DNA of 49,037 bases from a virus. The position numbers were made by a program, and so were the translations under genes. Below are positions 759 to 49,037 of the stretch, in pieces (the first letter of the stretch is position 1; the number at the start of each line of letters is the position of its first letter). The stretch spans positions 1 to 49,037 of IMG/VR virus record IMGVR_UViG_3300035170_000032. One strand, 5' to 3'. Below the pieces are notes generated by a model. The model was not told the DNA's origin. It saw nothing but the letters and a program-made list of their open reading frames with translations, and ran no database searches.

Positions 759-965
759 TCAATCCTTAGTGTTAATATATTCATGGAATCGCTGCCAACT
801 AGCTAACCATCGTGCCATTTCTGGCGTGTATCCCTTGCGAAAATCATCCCGGTACCAAGCATAAACCAATGCCCGTTTTTCTGCTGTCCATACTCCTAAA
901 CCGAAGTGACGACCGCATGAGCATGGGATTTTGTCATAGGTTTGCTCTGTGGATTTTTTGATCAT
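759..965 (-). CDS. Small CxC-containing hypothetical protein
   Basis: It encodes 68 aa. An N-terminal CSCGRH is followed by a Trp/Tyr/Arg-rich helical part (WTAEKRALVYAWYRDDF). The ATG overlaps the stop of the replication gene (ATGA), so translation is probably coupled. The Cys-Cys-His cluster could bind metal, but there are too few ligands to name a finger type. Confidence 0.75.
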   Translation of the reverse strand: MIKKSTEQTYDKIPCSCGRHFGLGVWTAEKRALVYAWYRDDFRKGYTPEMARWLASWQRFHEYINTKD

Positions 966-1834
966 GGAGAAGCCCCTACCTGATCAAGTTTTCTTTGGGG
1001 TCTAACCGGAGCTTTTTTGGTTAAATATGCGAAAAATCGTAGGGAATTGGTTGGTTTTTTTTCTTTGACACGTTTAGTGATTTCAATTCGCATCTGTGCA
1101 ATTATCCATCCCATGTCATAGCGATGGTGCCAGTCTTGAATCGCTGCTGCGTCAAGTTCATCCAATTTTTCCTTGCCCAACAGGGCACAACAAACATCAA
1201 TACAAACAATAATATCATTAAAATTTAAATCTCCCCATAAATCTTTGAAAGAGTTATCCACATTCTTCGGGGATGATTCTGTGGATAACTGACTACAACT
1301 AGACACAGAAGAGATGTTATATTCTTTAACAACAATACTTGTTTGTTTTGTTTGTTTGTCTTGTTGTATGTCGTGACACTGTGTGACATTGTGTGACATG
1401 TCGTGATTATCGTGACTATCTATATTATTAGATGGTTTATTATTATCATTATTATCACTAATAAGTTTTTGTTTTTTAACTTCTTTTTCTCTTTGTCTCT
1501 GCAATCTTTTTCTTTCAGCCGCCCCATCATCTTCTCTGAGTGGTTGTTCTCTATCCCAAATTTCGAGAAAATTATCGGAGGTAATAAAACCCTTGTCACA
1601 CATCGATGTGACAATGCGTGACACTGTGTGACATTCCACTTCTTGAGAAAAGGCTATTTCTTCGTAATCAATTCCATCTAAACTCCCGCGTGGAGAATTT
1701 CTTGACGCATAGTCATAAATTTCCCAATAAACAGCGGTGATGAATGCCCGGTGTTCACCTGAAGCTTTCGCAATCATTCGTAATCTTGTGCTTGAAGGGG
1801 TGCCATGGTGGGAGCGGAAATAATGATAGCTCAT
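962..1834 (-). CDS. Phage replication initiator-like protein
   Basis: It encodes 290 aa. The first ~100 residues look like a winged-helix replication domain of phage O/DnaD-like proteins (YFRSHHGTPSSTRLRMIAK, then SQEVECHTVSRIVTSMCDKG, a helix-turn-helix-like pair). Residues ~100-185 are a basic then Asn/Asp/His-rich low-complexity linker. The C-terminal ~100 aa are compact and helical and could contact a helicase or loader. SD GAGGG precedes the ATG, which overlaps the upstream stop. Linker DNA carries TGTGACA repeats and an AT-rich tract, an arrangement like the lambda origin inside gene O. The role is inferred from architecture, not from a named family hit. Confidence 0.65.
   Translation of the reverse strand: MSYHYFRSHHGTPSSTRLRMIAKASGEHRAFITAVYWEIYDYASRNSPRGSLDGIDYEEIAFSQEVECHTVSRIVTSMCDKGFITSDNFLEIWDREQPLREDDGAAERKRLQRQREKEVKKQKLISDNNDNNKPSNNIDSHDNHDMSHNVTQCHDIQQDKQTKQTSIVVKEYNISSVSSCSQLSTESSPKNVDNSFKDLWGDLNFNDIIVCIDVCCALLGKEKLDELDAAAIQDWHHRYDMGWIIAQMRIEITKRVKEKKPTNSLRFFAYLTKKAPVRPQRKLDQVGASP
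1371..1640. other. Candidate replication origin (iterons plus AT-rich tract)
   Basis: Inside the replication gene, TCGTGACA (1371), TGTGTGACA (1380) and TTGTGTGACA (1389) lie in a row, followed by two TCGTGA copies. A second cluster at 1593-1635 holds TTGTCACA/TGTGACAA as an inverted pair, then GCGTGACA and TGTGTGACA. Between the clusters, 1415-1490 is almost pure A/T. Iterons beside an AT-rich unwinding region inside the initiator gene is the lambdoid layout. Function is inferred. Confidence 0.5.
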
Positions 1835-2394: not shown

Positions 2395-2610
2395 TTATTG
2401 CCCATGCTTTACATTTATGAGATATTGGCGCGCGGCCGGGAATGGAAGTCCTTTTCCAAGCATAATGGATTCTAGGGTGAGAACACCTTGAAGCGTGGGA
2501 AAGACAGAATAGCTTAGATCGTGGGGGTATTTGCGGTTAAGAATTTCGTCAATTCTTTCCTGGGTAGCCTGTAAAGATTGTATACAGGCGAAGGATGATT
2601 GTTCATTCAT
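2395..2610 (-). CDS. Hypothetical small protein
   Basis: It encodes 71 aa (MNEQSSFACIQSLQATQ...). A purine-rich AAAGGGAAA leader precedes the ATG. The N-terminal half is helical and a Gly/Pro-containing part follows. Family unknown. Confidence 0.65.
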   Translation of the reverse strand: MNEQSSFACIQSLQATQERIDEILNRKYPHDLSYSVFPTLQGVLTLESIMLGKGLPFPAARQYLINVKHGQ

Positions 2611-2703
2611 CGTGTTTCCCTTTGCTTTTCGGAGTTTTTAGGCTCCTCAGATTAATCAAACGGGTATGCGTCAAATTAGCGCATCAATTTCAGTACTGTT
2701 TTT

Positions 2704-2733
2704 TTATAATAAACAATGTATTGCTTATTATAA
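2704..2733. repeat. AT-rich perfect hairpin in a 257-bp gap
   Basis: TTATAATAA (2704-2712) and TTATTATAA (2725-2733) are exact complements, with CAAT/ATTG nested inside. The gap 2611-2867 holds no convincing gene, only this hairpin and a smaller GGAG...CTCC pair near 2630-2645. A 5' leader, processing site or protein-binding site is possible. Confidence 0.5.
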
Positions 2734-2867
2734 TGGGGAGTGTGGATGGTCATTCAGGCGGTTATATAGCTAATATTACTTTCGCTGTATTTCTACAGGG
2801 AGATCCATAATATGACCTAAACTCATCCACACACATCTACCGATTTTTGAGGACATCAGCAGCAGTC

Positions 2868-3062
2868 CTATTTGGGGGATCGATCCCCACAAATTTCTAA
2901 ATTTTGCGCTTCAAATTTTTTACAAATCGGCGAGGTTGGGTTTTGGATACATGCCATTTTTTCCTCATGTTCACCATGGAACATGTAAAGCGGCATAACA
3001 ATAAGCAGCCCTACAAGCCCAACGAACATTGCTATAGCGAATACCTTATCTCCAAAATTCAT
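2868..3062 (-). CDS. Single-pass membrane protein
   Basis: It encodes 64 aa. Residues ~8-28 form one hydrophobic helix (AIAMFVGLVGLLIVMPLYMF). A short tail with three Cys follows. The ATG shares its first base with the GapR stop region. The topology is clear but the function is unknown. Confidence 0.7.
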   Translation of the reverse strand: MNFGDKVFAIAMFVGLVGLLIVMPLYMFHGEHEEKMACIQNPTSPICKKFEAQNLEICGDRSPK

Positions 3063-3310
3063 TATTCCCCCATCGCCATTCCAAGCGCGTGCTTGTAAAC
3101 ATCAAGCATGGTTTCTTGTTCCTCCAACTCGGATTTATCTAATTTGCGTAAGCGTACGATTAAGCGCATAATTTTTGCATCAAATCCGTTGCCCTTCGCT
3201 TCTGCATAGACTCCCTTAATATCGGCGGCGATGGTTGATTTTTCACCTTCCAATCGTTCTATGCGTTCGATATAGCTTTTTAGATATTCTTCTGAAACAA
3301 CTTGTGTCAT
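3062..3310 (-). CDS. GapR-like nucleoid-associated protein (DUF2312)
   Basis: It encodes 82 aa and matches GapR/DUF2312 over its whole length: [20 protein letters not shown], then [20 protein letters not shown], then a C-terminal helix. In Caulobacter GapR is a coiled-coil DNA clamp that binds overtwisted AT-rich DNA ahead of polymerases. GapR is largely confined to alphaproteobacteria and their phages, so this is the best host marker here. As an early operon member beside the replication gene, it may aid phage replication or alter host chromosome behaviour (inference). Confidence 0.9.
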
Positions 3311-3335
3311 TTTTAATCCGTTAAGCGTTTTTTAC

Positions 3336-3545
3336 TCAAATAACCGTAGAATTGTCTGGTAAATCAAAAAAATCATTAGGTTGCACTAATCCATTAGTAA
3401 CAATGAAAATTTTCACCATAATATTGGGTGAAGGAATCCTAAGACGTTTTATATAACGCCTGATAGTGGGCTGACTTACGCCTATATCATTCGCAAACGA
3501 TTCTACGGTTATTTTTTGTTTTTTAATGTAATCATATAATCTCAT
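3336..3545 (-). CDS. Cro-like helix-turn-helix repressor
   Basis: It encodes 69 aa. Residues ~13-35 (VESFANDIGVSQPTIRRYIK) are a clear HTH. It is the first gene of the leftward operon and diverges from the CI-like gene, the usual Cro position. Its -10 box (3557-3552) puts the transcript start at about 3545, the A of the ATG, so the message may be leaderless. The recognition helix differs from the CI-like protein, but both probably act on the TACC-N5-GGTA sites. Confidence 0.8.
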   Translation of the reverse strand: MRLYDYIKKQKITVESFANDIGVSQPTIRRYIKRLRIPSPNIMVKIFIVTNGLVQPNDFFDLPDNSTVI

Positions 3546-3551
3546 GGTTTA

Positions 3552-3579
3552 ACAATACCACTATGGTACACGGTGTCAA
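3552..3579 (-). promoter_or_regulatory. Leftward early promoter
   Basis: TTGACA (3579-3574), a 16-bp spacer and TATTGT (3557-3552) on the minus strand drive the operon from 3545 to 153. An operator palindrome (3556-3568) covers the spacer and -10, so the repressor should block polymerase. The -35 and spacer are the same as those of the rightward promoter because both lie in the 45-bp repeat. Confidence 0.8.
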
Positions 3580-3599
3580 CAATAAAATACCGTTTTGGT
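3555..3599. repeat. Left arm of 45-bp inverted repeat flanking the repressor
   Basis: 3555-3599 is the exact reverse complement of 4105-4149. It carries two operator sites and the -35/spacer of the leftward promoter. The match stops abruptly at both ends, as in a recent duplication or gene conversion. Confidence 0.95.
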
Positions 3600-3627
3600 T
3601 AATTTACATAAGAGTTCCAAAACGGTA
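3556..3627. promoter_or_regulatory. Left operator cluster (three TACC-N5-GGTA sites)
   Basis: Three 13-bp partial palindromes: TACCACTATGGTA (3556-3568), TACCGTTTTGGTT (3588-3600) and TTCCAAAACGGTA (3615-3627). Sites 2 and 3 face each other as 12-bp inverted arms 18 bp apart. Site 1 covers the leftward promoter and site 3 covers the -10 of the predicted repressor promoter, which suggests autoregulation. Confidence 0.8.
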
Positions 3628-3631
3628 TGTT
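3603..3631 (+). promoter_or_regulatory. Predicted repressor-maintenance promoter
   Basis: TTTACA (3603-3608), 17 bp, then TATGTT (3626-3631). The transcript start would fall at about 3638, the A of the repressor ATG. That gives a leaderless message, as for lambda cI from PRM. An operator half overlaps the -10. The weaker -10 fits a regulated promoter. Confidence 0.55.
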
Positions 3632-3637
3632 TATTTT

Positions 3638-4045
3638 ATGTTAAAAAACAAAATTAGAGATGTTAGAAAGCAATGCGGCCTTACTATTCAACAACTCGCT
3701 GATAAGGCTAAAACGTCGCATGCTCAAATAGTACGTTTAGAAAAGGGGGATCGGCGATTAACTGTCGAATGGATAGATCGCATTGCAACAGCATTGCAAT
3801 GTGATCCCATGGAATTGATAGTATCAAATAACACTCAACATAATGATTCTATTATTGATCAAAACATATTATCTAATACCATATGCGCGGTAGAGGACTG
3901 GATAATTTTAAATGCAATATCTATAACTTCTCATCAAAAATCTAAAGCTATTTGTTCGCTTTATACGCACATTATGAATAATTCTGTCTCCACTCCCTCG
4001 GCACAAGAAATAAAATTAGTCATAAACACCATCTTAAGCCAATAA
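3638..4045 (+). CDS. CI-like prophage repressor (XRE family)
   Basis: It encodes 135 aa. Residues 1-65 are an HTH_3 domain (IRDVRKQCGLTIQQLADKAK, then TSHAQIVRLEKGDRRLTVEW). The C-terminal ~60 aa are helical and not a LexA-type peptidase, so RecA-stimulated self-cleavage is not expected. An upstream ATG at 3563 would start inside an operator and read unlike this family, so 3638 is preferred. It is flanked by five operators and divergent promoters, the hallmark of an immunity switch. Confidence 0.8.
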   Translation: MLKNKIRDVRKQCGLTIQQLADKAKTSHAQIVRLEKGDRRLTVEWIDRIATALQCDPMELIVSNNTQHNDSIIDQNILSNTICAVEDWIILNAISITSHQKSKAICSLYTHIMNNSVSTPSAQEIKLVINTILSQ

Positions 4046-4103
4046 ATATACGTACCCTAACTATCATTGCCCTGATGATAATTTATCATCATAAATATTT
4101 TTG

Positions 4104-4148
4104 TACCAAAACGGTATTTTATTGTTGACACCGTGTACCATAGTGGTA
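4104..4148. promoter_or_regulatory. Right operator pair
   Basis: TACCAAAACGGTA (4104-4116) and TACCATAGTGGTA (4136-4148) repeat the left operators in reverse order. The second lies in the spacer and -10 of the rightward promoter, giving direct repression of the early operon. Confidence 0.85.
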
Positions 4149-4149
4149 T
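4105..4149. repeat. Right arm of 45-bp inverted repeat
   Basis: Exact reverse complement of 3555-3599. The 505 bp between the arms contain the repressor gene and one further operator. Confidence 0.95.
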
Positions 4150-4152
4150 GAT
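4125..4152 (+). promoter_or_regulatory. Rightward early promoter
   Basis: TTGACA (4125-4130), 16-bp spacer, TATGAT (4147-4152): close to the sigma-70 consensus. It should drive the early operon from 4215. The -10 is stronger than that of the leftward promoter (TATTGT) although the rest is the same. Confidence 0.85.
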
Positions 4153-4214
4153 TACTCTATCATTCGGATTTATTTGATTGATATGATGCTAACAAAAATC
4201 AATATGGGGAAAAA

Positions 4215-4487
4215 ATGGGTATAAAACTTTCAACTGACGATCAGGTGCGATTGCTGCAAACTTTCCGGGCAGTTAATGAATTGGTAGAGCATATGGGTAA
4301 AGTCGATTTTGATATTGATCTTGTTCAGTATGCAATCGATCTTGCCGGCGTAGGTGATGTCATCAAAGACTCATGTGTACTTTCACTAAAAACTAACCAA
4401 GAAATCGAAGAGGAAATCGAAAACGAACGCCAAGAGCGTGATTTTCGGTCGTATCAACACGCAATTTATCATGAAAATAGGATTTAA
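4215..4487 (+). CDS. Hypothetical early protein
   Basis: It encodes 90 aa, the first gene after the rightward promoter, with GGGGAAAA before the ATG. Predicted helical, with a very acidic C-terminal coiled stretch (EIEEEIENERQERDFRSY). No family is recognised. The position is where lambdoid phages put antiterminators or regulators, but nothing in the sequence supports such a role. Confidence 0.75.
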   Translation: MGIKLSTDDQVRLLQTFRAVNELVEHMGKVDFDIDLVQYAIDLAGVGDVIKDSCVLSLKTNQEIEEEIENERQERDFRSYQHAIYHENRI

Positions 4488-4488
4488 T

Positions 4489-4590
4489 ATGAGCGACAGA
4501 GATAAATCAGAGCTTATCAGGCTTTTGACTGAATACCACCAGGCTAGCATGGCCTTGATGAATTTGGTCAAAAAAAGAGCCGCTTCTTAG
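4489..4590 (+). CDS. Tiny helical protein (33 aa)
   Basis: It starts at ATG 4489 just after the previous stop, with AGGA upstream. It encodes one amphipathic helix ending in KKRAAS. Its last codons overlap the stem of the minus-strand hairpin at 4576-4602. It may be translated, but its size makes this uncertain. Confidence 0.45.
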   Translation: MSDRDKSELIRLLTEYHQASMALMNLVKKRAAS

Positions 4591-4602
4591 GAAAACGGCT
4601 CT
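4570..4602 (-). terminator. Minus-strand intrinsic terminator inside rightward operon
   Basis: Read on the minus strand, AGAGCCG (4602-4596) pairs with CGGCTCT (4582-4576), followed by seven T (4576-4570). It faces against the operon, so it would stop antisense transcripts heading towards the immunity region. Confidence 0.65.
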
Positions 4603-4610
4603 AATAGTAG

Positions 4611-4650
4611 GGATGCTATCCCATAGTGTGGAAACTCAAAGATAGCATCC
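4611..4650. repeat. 10-bp perfect hairpin
   Basis: GGATGCTATC (4611-4620) and GATAGCATCC (4641-4650) are exact complements around a 20-nt loop, with no T-run on either side. It lies between two small genes in the early operon. It could be an RNA-processing or protein-binding hairpin. Confidence 0.55.
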
Positions 4651-4682
4651 TGATTCGTAATGTCAATGAAAAAAGAGCTATT

Positions 4683-4808
4683 ATGCGAATGGTTATACTA
4701 GGACTTTTATTTTTAACGGCTGTTGATCAATTAGGTGATCGCTGGTTTGACTATCAAGATAGGCAGGAAGCACAGGCAAACGCTAAAATCCAATTAGCGG
4801 GGCAATGA
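4683..4808 (+). CDS. Small single-pass membrane protein
   Basis: It encodes 41 aa from ATG 4683, with a GAG-containing leader. An ATG at 4626 would place the start in the hairpin loop and is less likely. Residues 1-15 are hydrophobic (MRMVILGLLFLTAVDQ), followed by an acidic/Gln-rich tail. The stop overlaps the next start (TGATG). Confidence 0.55.
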   Translation: MRMVILGLLFLTAVDQLGDRWFDYQDRQEAQANAKIQLAGQ

Positions 4809-4978
4809 TGCGACAATTAAACCTTAGACTTGATGATGAACTGATAAACCGCCTGGTCAATCGTCCTCGGATGAAATGGCAATGGATTTTAAAAATGGCT
4901 GCGAAAAACTGGATAACTGAACATGTTAGCGACCGGGCGGCAAAACTTAAGAGGAACGTCGAAAATGACCCCAACTGA
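4808..4978 (+). CDS. Ribbon-helix-helix-like small protein
   Basis: It encodes 56 aa. The N-terminus MRQLNLRLDDELINRL looks like the beta strand and first helix of RHH (Arc/MetJ) repressors. A second helix rich in Trp and Lys follows. It is coupled to genes on both sides by overlaps. Probably a DNA-binding regulator of the early region. Confidence 0.6.
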   Translation: MRQLNLRLDDELINRLVNRPRMKWQWILKMAAKNWITEHVSDRAAKLKRNVENDPN

Positions 4979-5333
4979 AAAAGAGTTTTACAAAGCATTA
5001 GGCGAAAGGTTGTACTATTCTAGGATACACTGCGGATTATCTTCACAAGACATGGGGAAAATACTCAATGTATCCCATCAGCAGGTGCAAAAATATACTA
5101 AAGGAACAGATCGTATATCATTATACAGGGTTAATTTATGGGCGATTGCCACTAAAACGCATATCGAGGATTTGCTTGGAATTCTTAAAGATGATGAAGA
5201 TGCTTTTTATTTAAACCCTGTCACTCGAATCGATATGGAATTTGCAAAAACCTTTAAGGATTTGTCCAAGCCGATTGCAACAAAAATTATCAGCCTCATG
5301 AGGGAAATAGGGAAGGATAGAAATGCTCAATAA
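4965..5333 (+). CDS. XRE-family transcriptional regulator
   Basis: It encodes 122 aa from ATG 4965 (AAGAGGA 9 nt upstream), preferred over 4923. Residues ~8-70 form an HTH_3 domain of the type common in alphaproteobacterial genomes and phages (LSSQDMGKILNVSHQQVQKY followed by TKGTDRIS). The C-terminal ~50 aa are helical. It starts inside the RHH gene and ends inside the exonuclease gene, so the three are likely translated together. Confidence 0.8.
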   Translation: MTPTEKEFYKALGERLYYSRIHCGLSSQDMGKILNVSHQQVQKYTKGTDRISLYRVNLWAIATKTHIEDLLGILKDDEDAFYLNPVTRIDMEFAKTFKDLSKPIATKIISLMREIGKDRNAQ

Positions 5334-6252
5334 ACAGCCTGTAGGAACAGCGCCGGGGATTTATTATGATATGTCCGACGAGGAATATCATGCTGACCCA
5401 TCCTTAAGCAGCAGCGGAATAAAAAAGCTCTTACCCGCCGAGGAAGGTGACAAACCAAATCCCTTAGAATATTGGGAGGAATCGGTTTTAAACCCAAATC
5501 GAGAGCCGCTAGACACGGCCGCATTACGTTATGGACGCGCCTACCATACGCTTGTGCTTCAGCCCCAAATTTTTAGCAATCAATTTATCGTATTACCTCC
5601 CGTCAATGATATAAAAATTGATTCTGAGGCATGGGCTGAATTGAGGGATGGTGAAGATGGTAAAGATTTTATCCTTCTTGAATCAAAAACGGCAAAAGTT
5701 GTGAAATATGGTGGTAAAAAAATTGTTATTTCACAAAGCGATTATGCCGATATGTGCACAATGCGTGATGTTTTATTCAGATCGCCGCAAATATCAACAC
5801 TGCTGAATGAAAGCGACAAAGAAGTTGCGATTTTCTGGCGTGATGAAGAAACCGGAATCATGTGCCGGGTGAAGTTTGACTTATTACATCCTCAATTTAT
5901 CACCGATTTGAAAACTATTGCTTCCAGTACCTCATCGAAACGCAAACTGCGCTATGAGTGCTTGGATAGAAAATACCCGGTTTCTGCTGCTATGTACCTC
6001 GAAGGATTAAGAGTGGCGTGCGAAAATGGGTGGATTACTGAAAATAGTCATTCCCAGTTTGCCTTATTGTTTCAGGGTAAAAATAAGCCTCATACCCCAC
6101 GTTTGGTAGTTATCAATGATAACCACATAATAAAAGGTCATGATTATTTTAGGCTTGGACTGGAAATTTACCAGGAAAATTTAGAAAAATACGGCACTGA
6201 TCGTTGGTCGGATGACCAATGTCATGCCGAATATTTATTTGATGAAATTTAA
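5323..6252 (+). CDS. RecE/ExoVIII-like PD-(D/E)XK exonuclease
   Basis: It encodes 309 aa. The order matches PDDEXK-type exodeoxyribonuclease VIII proteins: an N-terminal YYDMSDEEYHADPSLSSSGI, then YGRAYHTLVLQP, then the catalytic core EVAIFWRDE...CRVKFDLL...ITDLKT (Asp, then Asp-x-Lys). Such enzymes resect dsDNA 5' ends to leave 3' ssDNA for the partner annealing protein, here the next gene. Recombination may circularise or concatenate phage DNA. Confidence 0.85.
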   Translation: MLNKQPVGTAPGIYYDMSDEEYHADPSLSSSGIKKLLPAEEGDKPNPLEYWEESVLNPNREPLDTAALRYGRAYHTLVLQPQIFSNQFIVLPPVNDIKIDSEAWAELRDGEDGKDFILLESKTAKVVKYGGKKIVISQSDYADMCTMRDVLFRSPQISTLLNESDKEVAIFWRDEETGIMCRVKFDLLHPQFITDLKTIASSTSSKRKLRYECLDRKYPVSAAMYLEGLRVACENGWITENSHSQFALLFQGKNKPHTPRLVVINDNHIIKGHDYFRLGLEIYQENLEKYGTDRWSDDQCHAEYLFDEI

Positions 6253-12518: not shown

Positions 12519-12708
12519 CCCAATAGTCAAATACCTATACCTCATATTTTGCAAGTGCGGATGGGGAAAGTATATTATTCCTGACGGTACGGAGGTCAAT
12601 ATAGCTTGCGATATGATCAAGCAAGAGGCTGAGTTAGGGTGCCGTTTCTGCGGCGGTGAAAAGCTTCATATGAGAAATGCTAACGATGGGATGAATGAGG
12701 CAATGTAA
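12502..12708 (+). CDS. Small zinc-ribbon-like protein
   Basis: It encodes 68 aa overlapping the end of the methyltransferase. FCKCGWGKYI and CRFCGGEKLH provide CxC and CxxC pairs about 30 residues apart, the layout of a zinc ribbon. Its stop overlaps the next start. Confidence 0.65.
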   Translation: MKIENSPIVKYLYLIFCKCGWGKYIIPDGTEVNIACDMIKQEAELGCRFCGGEKLHMRNANDGMNEAM

Positions 12709-13130
12709 TGACAGTGTTTGACCTGATTAAATGTGGGCGTTTAAAGCTAAATGTCGCCAGAGATATTCTTAAAAAAGAATCATCAAAATATGGTAGTGAT
12801 TTTGTTGAAATGGTTTGCGATCCTCCTAATGATAATTTTATAAAGGCACTGCGTTCACGAGATTTTTTGGTGCAAATATCTCAAGAAAATGGTGCTATCC
12901 GTCTCTCTATAAATCGCACTATTTTAAATCAAAAAGGAACGCGCTGGCAAGATGGCATTAGCTGGGATGAAATTCAGAATATCAAAAATAAAATTGGTTA
13001 TGCTGAGAGGTGCGCTGTCGAGATTTATCCACCGGAAAATCATAAAGTCGATGTTGCTAATATACGTCATATCTGGGTTTTAGAAAAAGAACCCGATTTT
13101 ATGTGGAAAAATAATTTGGTTGACAAATAG
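12708..13130 (+). CDS. DUF7694-like phage protein
   Basis: It encodes 140 aa. The C-terminal ~80 residues (ISWDEIQNIKNKIGYAERCA, then EIYPPE, then NIRHIWVLE) match a small phage domain with WDEL-x(2)-KNEI, AVEVYPP and NMRHLWVL blocks. It is the last gene of the rightward operon, and its final codons and stop lie in the left arm of the 40-bp inverted repeat. Confidence 0.75.
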   Translation: MTVFDLIKCGRLKLNVARDILKKESSKYGSDFVEMVCDPPNDNFIKALRSRDFLVQISQENGAIRLSINRTILNQKGTRWQDGISWDEIQNIKNKIGYAERCAVEIYPPENHKVDVANIRHIWVLEKEPDFMWKNNLVDK

Positions 13131-13205
13131 GTGGTATTTTCGGCTATGGTTGCGATGACACATATGCAACCATAGCCGAAAATACCACCTATTTGTCAAC
13201 CAAAT
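13114..13205. repeat. Perfect 40-bp inverted repeat, 12-bp loop
   Basis: 13114-13153 is the exact reverse complement of 13166-13205, with loop GATGACACATAT. It marks the end of the rightward operon. A run-on transcript would form a 40-bp RNA duplex, a good RNase III substrate, and the DNA could extrude as a cruciform. There is no U-run after it, so it is not an ordinary intrinsic terminator. Each arm contains TTGACA pointing inward, without a good -10. Confidence 0.97.
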
Positions 13206-16736: not shown

Positions 16737-16769
16737 ATTAAATAACAATATAATTATTCAATTAAATAA
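16737..16769. repeat. ATTAAATAA repeats downstream of parA
   Basis: Two exact ATTAAATAA copies (16737-16745 and 16761-16769) with the same orientation, 24 bp apart. The second lies in the last codons of parA. With the upstream copies, they may form part of the centromere or operator. Confidence 0.5.
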
Positions 16770-17386
16770 TCAATAGATTCTTTCATTATTTGATTTATTT
16801 CTTGCGCTGCTTCACCTTGCGGATTTTCATCAAATACACTATTACCTATAGCTGCCGACGATGGATAAATAACACGCTGGTGGGTTCGACCATTGAGAAT
16901 GGGAAGTTCGTAACCACGTAATACATCCACCACATCATTACCTATCTTAGTTCCCTTAATGGCGCGGCTAATAACAAATGCCGCTTTTAACTGTCCGTTT
17001 GTTATAGATATTCGATCCTGTACAAGTTTTACCAGGGCTTCGGTACCCCATATATCATATGCCGAAGGAGTTACCGGTATTAATACGAGATTCGCAGCTT
17101 TCATTGCACTAATAGATAGACTATCGGCTTGTGGGGCACCATCGATAATAACGATATCTCTTTTTCTGATATCCTTTATAACCTTTTCAATAATGGGCTT
17201 ATTTACCGGATGAACATCGATAGGATGATCCTCTTTTGCACTCCACCAATCATAGGAGCTACCTTGTGGATCAGAATCAATCAATAAAACATCCTTTTTT
17301 GAACGATGAAACGCAGAGGCAAGATTAGTAGATATTGTAGTCTTTCCAGAACCACCCTTTTGATTTAATACAGCTATAACATACAT
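16754..17386 (-). CDS. parA: ParA/ParF-type partition ATPase
   Basis: It encodes 210 aa, the short ParF/type Ib size without an N-terminal HTH. Deviant Walker A KGGSGKTT at residues 10-17, LLIDSDPQGS (Walker A'), VIIDGAPQ (Walker B). It would use ATP-dependent gradients on the nucleoid to place replicon copies. With the RHH gene and no integrase in the window, it points to extrachromosomal prophage maintenance. Its start overlaps a TTATTTAAT repeat, suggesting autoregulation. Confidence 0.9.
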   Translation of the reverse strand: MYVIAVLNQKGGSGKTTISTNLASAFHRSKKDVLLIDSDPQGSSYDWWSAKEDHPIDVHPVNKPIIEKVIKDIRKRDIVIIDGAPQADSLSISAMKAANLVLIPVTPSAYDIWGTEALVKLVQDRISITNGQLKAAFVISRAIKGTKIGNDVVDVLRGYELPILNGRTHQRVIYPSSAAIGNSVFDENPQGEAAQEINQIMKESIDYLIE

Positions 17387-17973: not shown

Positions 17974-18095
17974 AAGAAATAGGGGACAGACAAGAAACTA
18001 TCGAACTGGACAAAATAACGAAAATGTCAGATGAGAAATTAATATTAATGCTGCCTCTGATAATCGAAGCTTACTTAGAAAAATGCGAGCAATGA
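17970..18095 (+). CDS. Small linker protein, GTG start
   Basis: It encodes 41 aa from GTG 17970, which overlaps the previous stop (GTGA), and ends overlapping the acyltransferase ATG. Helical (MSDEKLILMLPLIIEAYLEK). Real by packing, but otherwise uncharacterised. Confidence 0.45.
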   Translation: MKEIGDRQETIELDKITKMSDEKLILMLPLIIEAYLEKCEQ

Positions 18096-19216
18096 AAGAA
18101 ATTGACGGACTAACCGGCCTCCGAGGCTATGCTGCATTATGGATAATGTTGTTTCATTCATTAACCATCATCACACCATTTTACGGCACCGCAAAGAAAT
18201 ACCCATTCACGGGCATTATTGGCGTAGACATGTTTTTCGTACTGTCGGGATTTTTGCTATTTATACCGTTTGCAGATGCCCTAATAGCAGAAATACCTAT
18301 ACCTGATACTAGTATCATGTATTATTTTAAAAAACGCTTCTTGCGCATATTTCCGGCCTATTACGCGCAAATAGCAATTCTTGCAGGGCTTTCATTAGCG
18401 GGGGTTTATGAAGTGCAACCGCCCTCTGTATGGATAGCTCATATTTTCATGGTGCATAATTTTTATTCTGGATGGGCTAAAGCAATAAATGGGGTGTGGT
18501 GGACACTTGCACCGGAGTTTGATTTTTATTTGGTGCTGCCGTTACTGTTCTTGTTAATAAGAAAAAAAGGAATGGATTGGTTCATACTATCAGCCATACA
18601 GCTATCAATAGTTTATAAATTAATCATATTTCCTCATATAACAAACATGGATGATGGGTATAAACAATATATGTTAGGCCAATTACCAGGCAGGATTGAT
18701 CTTTTCGCAATTGGGATGACCGCAGCTTTTATTTATCGCAAATATTACGATCAACTGCGGAATTTTCCTAATGCAGAAAAGATTATGGTTTTGGCGGGGA
18801 TTATTGGAATTGGTGGATTTTACTTGGTGATGACATCATTAGGGCGTGGAGTATATTACGGCGGTCACTGGAGTCTTTACATAGCAGAAACGATTTATGG
18901 GTTAATCGCAGCTATTTTGATATTGGGGATTACTTTGAATGGTGGAATCGGAAAGGCGATATTTTCTAATAGGGTGATGGTTTATTTCGGCACGGTGAGC
19001 TATAGCATTTATCTATGGCATGTGCCTATTTTGCGCATGATCTTTGAAAATAAATCAGTTGTGGCGGCATTGAATGGAGGCTTGAAAGCGGGGATTATAG
19101 TGATGTACGTGGGGATCGTATTTGCGGTATCGCATTTATCCTACAGATGGATTGAAAAGCCGTTTATACGTCTAAGCCATGTAAAGAGCAGCCTCAGCCG
19201 CCCTGCGATGAACTAA
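18092..19216 (+). CDS. Acyltransferase 3 family membrane protein
   Basis: It encodes 374 aa. ATG 18092 overlaps the previous stop. An OafA/YrhL-like integral membrane acyltransferase: GLTGLRGYAALWIMLFHS at the start, GVDMFFVLSGFLL, KKRFLRIFPAYYAQI, then about ten membrane helices and YSIYLWHVPI. These proteins add acetyl groups to surface glycans. In prophages such genes often change the host O-antigen and block superinfection (lysogenic conversion), the likely role here. The 3' end overlaps the endolysin gene on the other strand by 45 bp. Confidence 0.85.
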   Translation: MKEIDGLTGLRGYAALWIMLFHSLTIITPFYGTAKKYPFTGIIGVDMFFVLSGFLLFIPFADALIAEIPIPDTSIMYYFKKRFLRIFPAYYAQIAILAGLSLAGVYEVQPPSVWIAHIFMVHNFYSGWAKAINGVWWTLAPEFDFYLVLPLLFLLIRKKGMDWFILSAIQLSIVYKLIIFPHITNMDDGYKQYMLGQLPGRIDLFAIGMTAAFIYRKYYDQLRNFPNAEKIMVLAGIIGIGGFYLVMTSLGRGVYYGGHWSLYIAETIYGLIAAILILGITLNGGIGKAIFSNRVMVYFGTVSYSIYLWHVPILRMIFENKSVVAALNGGLKAGIIVMYVGIVFAVSHLSYRWIEKPFIRLSHVKSSLSRPAMN

Positions 19217-48416: not shown

Positions 48417-48908
48417 TTATATCCCATAATGTTTTATCAATTTATCCAGGCCAGAATGAAGCAATCCACGCACACGCCGAAGTTTTCCAGCGTTTTTTGT
48501 GAAATTTGTCAAATATCCGTCATCGATGACAATACATTCGATAACGAGGCGTTCACTTATGCCACGAAATCCTTTATCATCCAGTATTGCCAAGGAATTA
48601 TTATATGTGACTCTCGCATCAAGTAAAACATCAACGGCATACTCCTTACAGTTTCCTTTAACGTCAAAATCTGCTGAAGATTTGATATATGAAAACTGCC
48701 CGGCCTTTTCGGCTTCACACTGGAGAAACTTGCCAGCGGAATGCTGTTGATGATCAATAATGTGACGGGCAAAAAGCTCATCAAAATGATTCTGTATTTT
48801 TACTATGGCTACCTTTTCGTTTTCTTCAGTGTAACCAATTCTTACGCCACCACCCCGTAATTGGGTTTCGGGAGTTCCAAAATCTGATTCTTGATAAGCA
48901 TGATTCAT
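48417..48908 (-). CDS. DUF6456-like protein near terminase
   Basis: It encodes 163 aa from ATG 48908 with AGAGG 9 nt upstream; a longer frame to 49004 crosses the hairpin. DHQQHSAGKFLQCEAEKAG and ERLVIECIVIDDGYLTNFTK then LRRVRGLLHSGLDKLIKHYG match the DUF6456 pattern (AG-x-Y...R...L...VC-x-D-x-L-x-E...GLL-x-AL-x-LA-x-HYG). Sits upstream of terminase, where such proteins may serve as late regulators. It spans the circular joint. Confidence 0.65.
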   Translation of the reverse strand: MNHAYQESDFGTPETQLRGGGVRIGYTEENEKVAIVKIQNHFDELFARHIIDHQQHSAGKFLQCEAEKAGQFSYIKSSADFDVKGNCKEYAVDVLLDARVTYNNSLAILDDKGFRGISERLVIECIVIDDGYLTNFTKNAGKLRRVRGLLHSGLDKLIKHYGI

Positions 48909-49037
48909 AATACTTGCCTCTTGTGGATGATTAATATATCCTTGACTTCGAGGCTCTACCGCTTCACCGCTAGCAAAATTTAAATGACCCGCGCGTCCCT
49001 TCACCTGGCGCGGGTTTTTTTATTCTACCTCTGATTT
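48868..49037. repeat. Right copy of terminal direct repeat
   Basis: Matches 1-170 with one difference (G48995 versus T128). Contains the start of the DUF6456-like gene and the second copy of the GC-rich hairpin (48987-49021). Confidence 0.97.

Follow-up and report, generated by a model that had tools for sequence, protein, structure and literature searches.

The window analysed here, a stretch of viral DNA of 49,037 nt, contains a gene encoding a CI-like repressor between two arms of operator-promoter DNA which mirror each other exactly, and the question raised by this locus is why two separated arms of a repressor switch are identical. In our judgement, the region is probably a lambda-type lysis/lysogeny switch of a probable plasmid-like temperate phage, whose arms would have been made perfect by recent copying.

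Genes, promoters and operators of the immunity region

The two ends of the record (1-170 / 48868-49037) repeat each other over 170 nt, apart from one mismatch. A terminase search found another contig of this phage, L013, in a different sample; over 10.5 kb it has 99.96% identity and spans the joined ends, so that a complete genome, circular or circularly permuted, is probable. L013 stops short of the arms. A plasmid-type ParA-like ATPase, an O-acetyltransferase gene (18083-19216; phrog_3333, E 2.7e-49) typical of lysogenic conversion, and the fact that no integrase was noticed among the ORFs scanned make it likely, as far as gene content can tell, that this is a temperate phage with a plasmid-like prophage.

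The features of the region are listed in Table 1. The CI-like protein of 135 aa also matches the phrog_3 transcriptional repressor family (E 2.3e-11); it shows no match to a peptidase family and no recognised oligomerisation domain in its C-terminal part, and its AlphaFold model, made without an alignment, is poor (mean pLDDT 41.8). The Cro-like gene is divergent from cI and heads the leftward operon, adjacent to the early promoter at 3579-3552. The replication initiation gene, located among the leftward genes, contains direct repeats GTGACAYTGT in a 10-nt phase at 1363-1409 and 1608-1644, which are iteron-like and mark a candidate origin of replication.

Table 1. Coordinates of genes, arms, operators and promoters in the window.
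Feature	Coordinates	Strand	Remarks
Replication initiation protein gene	962..1834	-	among the leftward genes; 10-nt-phased repeats inside
GapR-like DNA-binding protein	3062..3310	-	leftward operon; PF10073, E 1e-32
Cro-like HTH protein, 69 aa	3336..3545	-	HTH_3, E 1.1e-7; phrog_35 transcriptional repressor, E 4.8e-7
Leftward early promoter, TTGACA-16-TATTGT	3552..3579	-	10/12; TGn before the -10
Left arm of the 45-nt perfect inverted repeat	3555..3599	-	OR-like; promoter reads leftward
Operator O1 left, TACCACTATGGTA	3556..3568	.	in the spacer of the leftward promoter, overlaps its -10
Operator O2 left, TACCGTTTTGGTT	3588..3600	.	between the two divergent promoters
Repressor (PRM-like) promoter, TTTACA-17-TATGTT	3603..3631	+	9/12; reads into cI
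Operator O3, TTCCAAAACGGTA	3615..3627	.	in the cI promoter, overlaps its -10; without right-hand partner
CI-like repressor, 135 aa	3638..4045	+	N-terminal HTH_3, PF01381, E 7.9e-12
Operator O2 right, TACCAAAACGGTA	4104..4116	.	perfect half-sites
Right arm of the 45-nt perfect inverted repeat	4105..4149	+	OL-like; promoter reads rightward
Rightward early promoter, TTGACA-16-TATGAT	4125..4152	+	11/12; TGn before the -10
Operator O1 right, TACCATAGTGGTA	4136..4148	.	palindrome of the TACCN5GGTA type
First gene of the rightward operon, 90 aa	4215..4487	+	without convincing family match
Exonuclease VIII-like protein (RecE type)	5323..6252	+	rightward operon; phrog_412, E 2.5e-54
ParA-like partition ATPase, plasmid-type	16754..17386	-	suggests plasmid-like prophage maintenance

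The preliminary description of this DNA had reported a perfect 45-bp inverted duplication around the CI-like gene, and the duplication is real: the arms are exact reverse complements at 45/45 nt, or 48/50 with the flanks included, and 505 nt separate them. Reading away from the repressor gene, both arms show the order ACCAAAACGGTA TTTTATTG TTGACA CCGTG TACCATAGTGGTA T, which corresponds to O2, an A/T-rich linker, the -35, five bases, and O1 running into the -10. The -10 elements lie mostly outside the shared sequence, and the common -35 and 16-nt spacer with a distinct -10 on each side are as previously described. The limits of identity practically coincide with the outer edges of O1 and O2; since the final base of the inner operator is not the same in both arms (GGTT and GGTA), identity ends one base short of that operator. 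In 30 Markov-1 genomes of equal length and dinucleotide content, with arms within 3.5 kb, the longest perfect inverted repeat ranges from 12 to 15 nt, against 45 nt here. The window genome and the related loci (about 2.3 Mb) contain only one other inverted repeat of at least 17 nt whose arms are separated by 150 nt or more (25 nt, in L068). With a loop of 12 nt, a second long perfect inverted repeat of the window genome (40 nt, 13114-13205) is located at the 3' end of a DUF7694 gene (12708-13130), and its RNA fold has an energy of -71.6 kcal/mol (z -14.9).

The three promoters were found by an unbiased sigma-70 scan and are correctly placed for cro, cI and the right operon. The predicted starts, seven bases past the -10, fall on the A of the ATG of cro (3545) and of cI (3638), which predicts leaderless mRNAs for the two genes. 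The cI and cro mRNAs of phage PY54 are leaderless by experiment (PMC4488713); thus transcripts starting at AUG are a likeness of both phages, experimental in PY54 and predicted in the window, whereas the number of operators between cI and cro is one in PY54 and three in the window.

The two operators per arm given in the preliminary description are confirmed as TACCN5GGTA palindromes. The region contains five such sites, three of them exact and two with one mismatch, and the O1 copies are inside both early promoters. The whole genome contains three exact TACCN5GGTA sites, all within the immunity region, and 21 sites with at most one mismatch, a number above every one of 100 shuffles. The third operator, O3, was absent from the preliminary description; two of its bases fall within the -10 of the cI promoter, a register that it shares with O1 in the early promoters. 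The centre of O2 left (3594) is at about -44 of the cI promoter, which is close to where lambda CI activates PRM. Another palindrome, TGACACCGTGTAC, lies over both -35 elements (3566-3578 and 4126-4138), and a matching sequence, TGACACGGTGTAA, is present between cI and cro in the related locus L199 (5598-5610); TGACACCGTGTAC is a possible Cro site.

From this anatomy we infer a set of protein-DNA contacts, an autoregulation of cI and a loop. CI dimers would bind O1 and O2 on each side; since the O1 and O2 centres are 32 bp apart in each arm, about three helical turns, both dimers would share one face of the DNA and could bind cooperatively. CI at O1, in the -35/-10 spacer, would shut both outward early promoters, the left one leading to Cro, GapR and probably the replication protein, and the right one to the exonuclease and recombination genes. 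From its place near -44, O2 may contribute to the activation of the cI promoter, and O3, over the -10 of this promoter, would limit cI when repressor is abundant. A repressor loop could bridge the inverted operator pairs, about 0.5 kb apart.

Relatives and known repressor switches

No phage records similar to 2400-5400 were found, no cI relatives were found in viral contigs by exact-peptide search, and the exact promoter core occurs in viral contigs nowhere besides the window. A search with a degenerate promoter-operator pattern matched 30 viral stretches; an inverted pair was present in none of them (0/30), only one had a repressor-type gene, and they were discounted as probably coincidental or as promoters of another kind. 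Two large viral contigs, L164 (3739-3766, 6067-6094) and L185 (10856-10883, 13184-13211), each contain two promoter copies TTGACATTCGGTACC-N5-GGTATAAT in the same direction, 2.3 kb apart. The searches gave no close relative sharing the operator by which the arm identity could be dated.

The loci used for comparison are relatives of the gene neighbouring the exonuclease and relatives of GapR, together with repressor-bearing regions of alphaproteobacterial genomes. In these loci, inverted arms scoring at least 14 flank 10 of the 127 repressor-type genes, the window counted; the shuffled scores have their 95th percentile at 11 and their maximum at 15. Outside the window, the longest exact arm run in the 127 repressor-type HTH gene neighbourhoods is 21 nt (L201). 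Several alphaproteobacterial-type phages show inverted operator-promoter arms around cI: in L200, L203 and L204, the repressor gene has on either side a -35 followed by an operator, amid bases that have drifted; L004 keeps the order of the window, with arms matching at 35/48; arms match at 28/33 in L204 and at 28/35 in L202; and L199, L201 and L203 have operator pairs 30-34 bp apart flanking the cI gene. The nearest locus by neighbouring genes is L199 (exonuclease 39%, GapR 78%), in which only the operators match: they are in the same places, the far-side pair being 30 bp apart, and the bases around them are different. The CI and Cro of L199 are not convincing as alignable relatives (BLASTP E 0.16 for CI, none for Cro). 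Judged from these sequences, the inverted operator-promoter layout is a common, ordinary design and perfect identity is no part of it, since relatives keep the layout but drift outside the operators. The preliminary description had named widely differing arms in relatives as evidence against its reading; the arms do differ outside the operators, but the inverted arrangement itself is conserved.

Compared with characterised phages, the window is a compact lambda-type OR/OL immunity region whose design is closest to those of N15/phiKO2 and Rhizobium phage 16-3. The arms of lambda, P22, phiKO2, N15, 16-3, HK97, phi80 and D3 share runs of 7-12 nt, the figures of HK97 and D3 being weak because no OL is annotated in the stretch used. 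Lambda resembles the window in the paired operators in both outward early promoters, the third operator at PRM and the divergence of cro from cI. The lambda arms align at 38/51 over the operators and the -35, the best of the eight, with a longest common run of 12 nt, so the flanks of the CI-like gene are, as the preliminary description held, OL/OR-like and far more alike than those of lambda. The differences are that lambda has 2.3 kb between its arms, with the rex genes, against 505 nt; three OL sites against two; and a CI of the LexA family with a peptidase domain, which the CI of the window lacks.

The repressor CB of N15/phiKO2 is without the cleavage residues and has three OR and two OL binding sites (PMC4997575). 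The window likewise has three operators between the repressor gene and cro and two past the far end of the repressor gene, and shares with the N15/phiKO2 immB region its compactness, the divergence of repressor and cro, probably the plasmid-like lifestyle, and a repressor without peptidase domain or self-cleavage residues. In contrast, OL and OR of N15/phiKO2 have common runs of only 7-8 nt, against 45 nt; N15-type operators are 16 bp long, TA-N10-TA, instead of TACCN5GGTA; the repressor has 202 aa in the records, against 135 aa; and OL is upstream of repA, whereas the replication gene of the window is on the cro side, so that the N15-type control of a replication gene by far-side operators is not found. 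The N15-type prophage is a linear plasmid with a protelomerase, and none was noticed among the listed ORFs of the window. Rhizobium phage 16-3 resembles the window in having OL directly downstream of the repressor gene, short inter-arm spacing and two operators at each early promoter; it differs in its repressor of 263 aa, its operators, annotated as 12 bp on the left and 14 bp on the right, and its arms, which share 7 nt.

Origin of the identity of the arms

A recent copying event is the most likely origin of the perfect identity, likelier than selection alone. One arm would have been copied recently onto the other, each -10 being kept separately, and no drift would have followed yet; the route may have been template switching between imperfect inverted repeats or annealing recombination. 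Outside O1, O2 and the -35, the arms have 14 positions, and all match (14/14; composition-based p about 1.5e-8), which favours copying; if TGACACCGTGTAC is counted as a site, nine positions are left (p about 1e-5), both values ignoring constraints not yet recognised. In PMC8604942, template switching is described as a process that homogenises the arms of inverted repeats and can invert the spacer, and the phage itself encodes an exonuclease VIII-like protein. The 14 matching positions can fairly be read as gene conversion, which the preliminary description proposed, but a single copying event suffices. An exchange between arms that still continues, by template switching or phage annealing, and keeps them identical, with promoters co-evolving with the repressor and cI in both orientations as a by-product, seems to us quite improbable. 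Selection alone could keep the 45 bases if each arm held an extra site, TGACACCGTGTAC (perhaps for Cro), and an A/T-rich UP-like element, and if a symmetric loop needed equal arms. The overlap of TGACACCGTGTAC with the -35 in both arms and its match in L199 agree with this, and so do the edges of identity, which coincide with operator edges; as identity would end there under selection too, the division between copying and selection is a matter of judgement. However, relatives of the same layout (L200, L202, L204, L199) drift around the operators, the arms of lambda, P22, N15 and phi80 do so too, and the eight bases between O2 and the -35 (3580-3587) have no evident role, so we hold selection alone to be unlikely.

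The preliminary description had also suggested that the arms could recombine and flip the repressor. Perfect arms of 45 nt, the exonuclease VIII-like recombination gene nearby and the ability of template switching to invert a spacer fit an invertible segment 3600-4104, yet cI is divergent from cro in the six relatives examined (L004, L199, L200, L201, L203 and L204), among the genes examined none for a DNA invertase was seen, and the record contains one orientation, no second having been found. Moreover, with identical arms, and with the variable parts of the -10 elements outside them, a flip would leave the early promoters and operator pairs nearly intact; being nearly neutral for the early promoters, it would make no evident switch. 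A literature search at title and abstract level found no paper on an invertible immunity repressor, and we regard inversion as very improbable. That one arm is an artefact of assembly or amplification is hardly credible: a single contig covers the region, L013 does not reach the arms and the genome holds the second long perfect repeat of 40 nt, but each arm is rightly placed with its own -10, its own operon and unique flanks, one early operon would have no promoter without either arm, and relatives have operators at both positions.

Implications for changes of immunity

If the perfection reflects only a recent chance copying, the switch of this phage is an ordinary one. As a simple symmetric switch, it suits testing what the differences between OL and OR contribute. 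For a new immunity, OL and OR must both track the changed binding specificity of the repressor, and the joint change of separated operators is a real question; copying from arm to arm would achieve such a change at once, and the present genome may represent the situation shortly after it.
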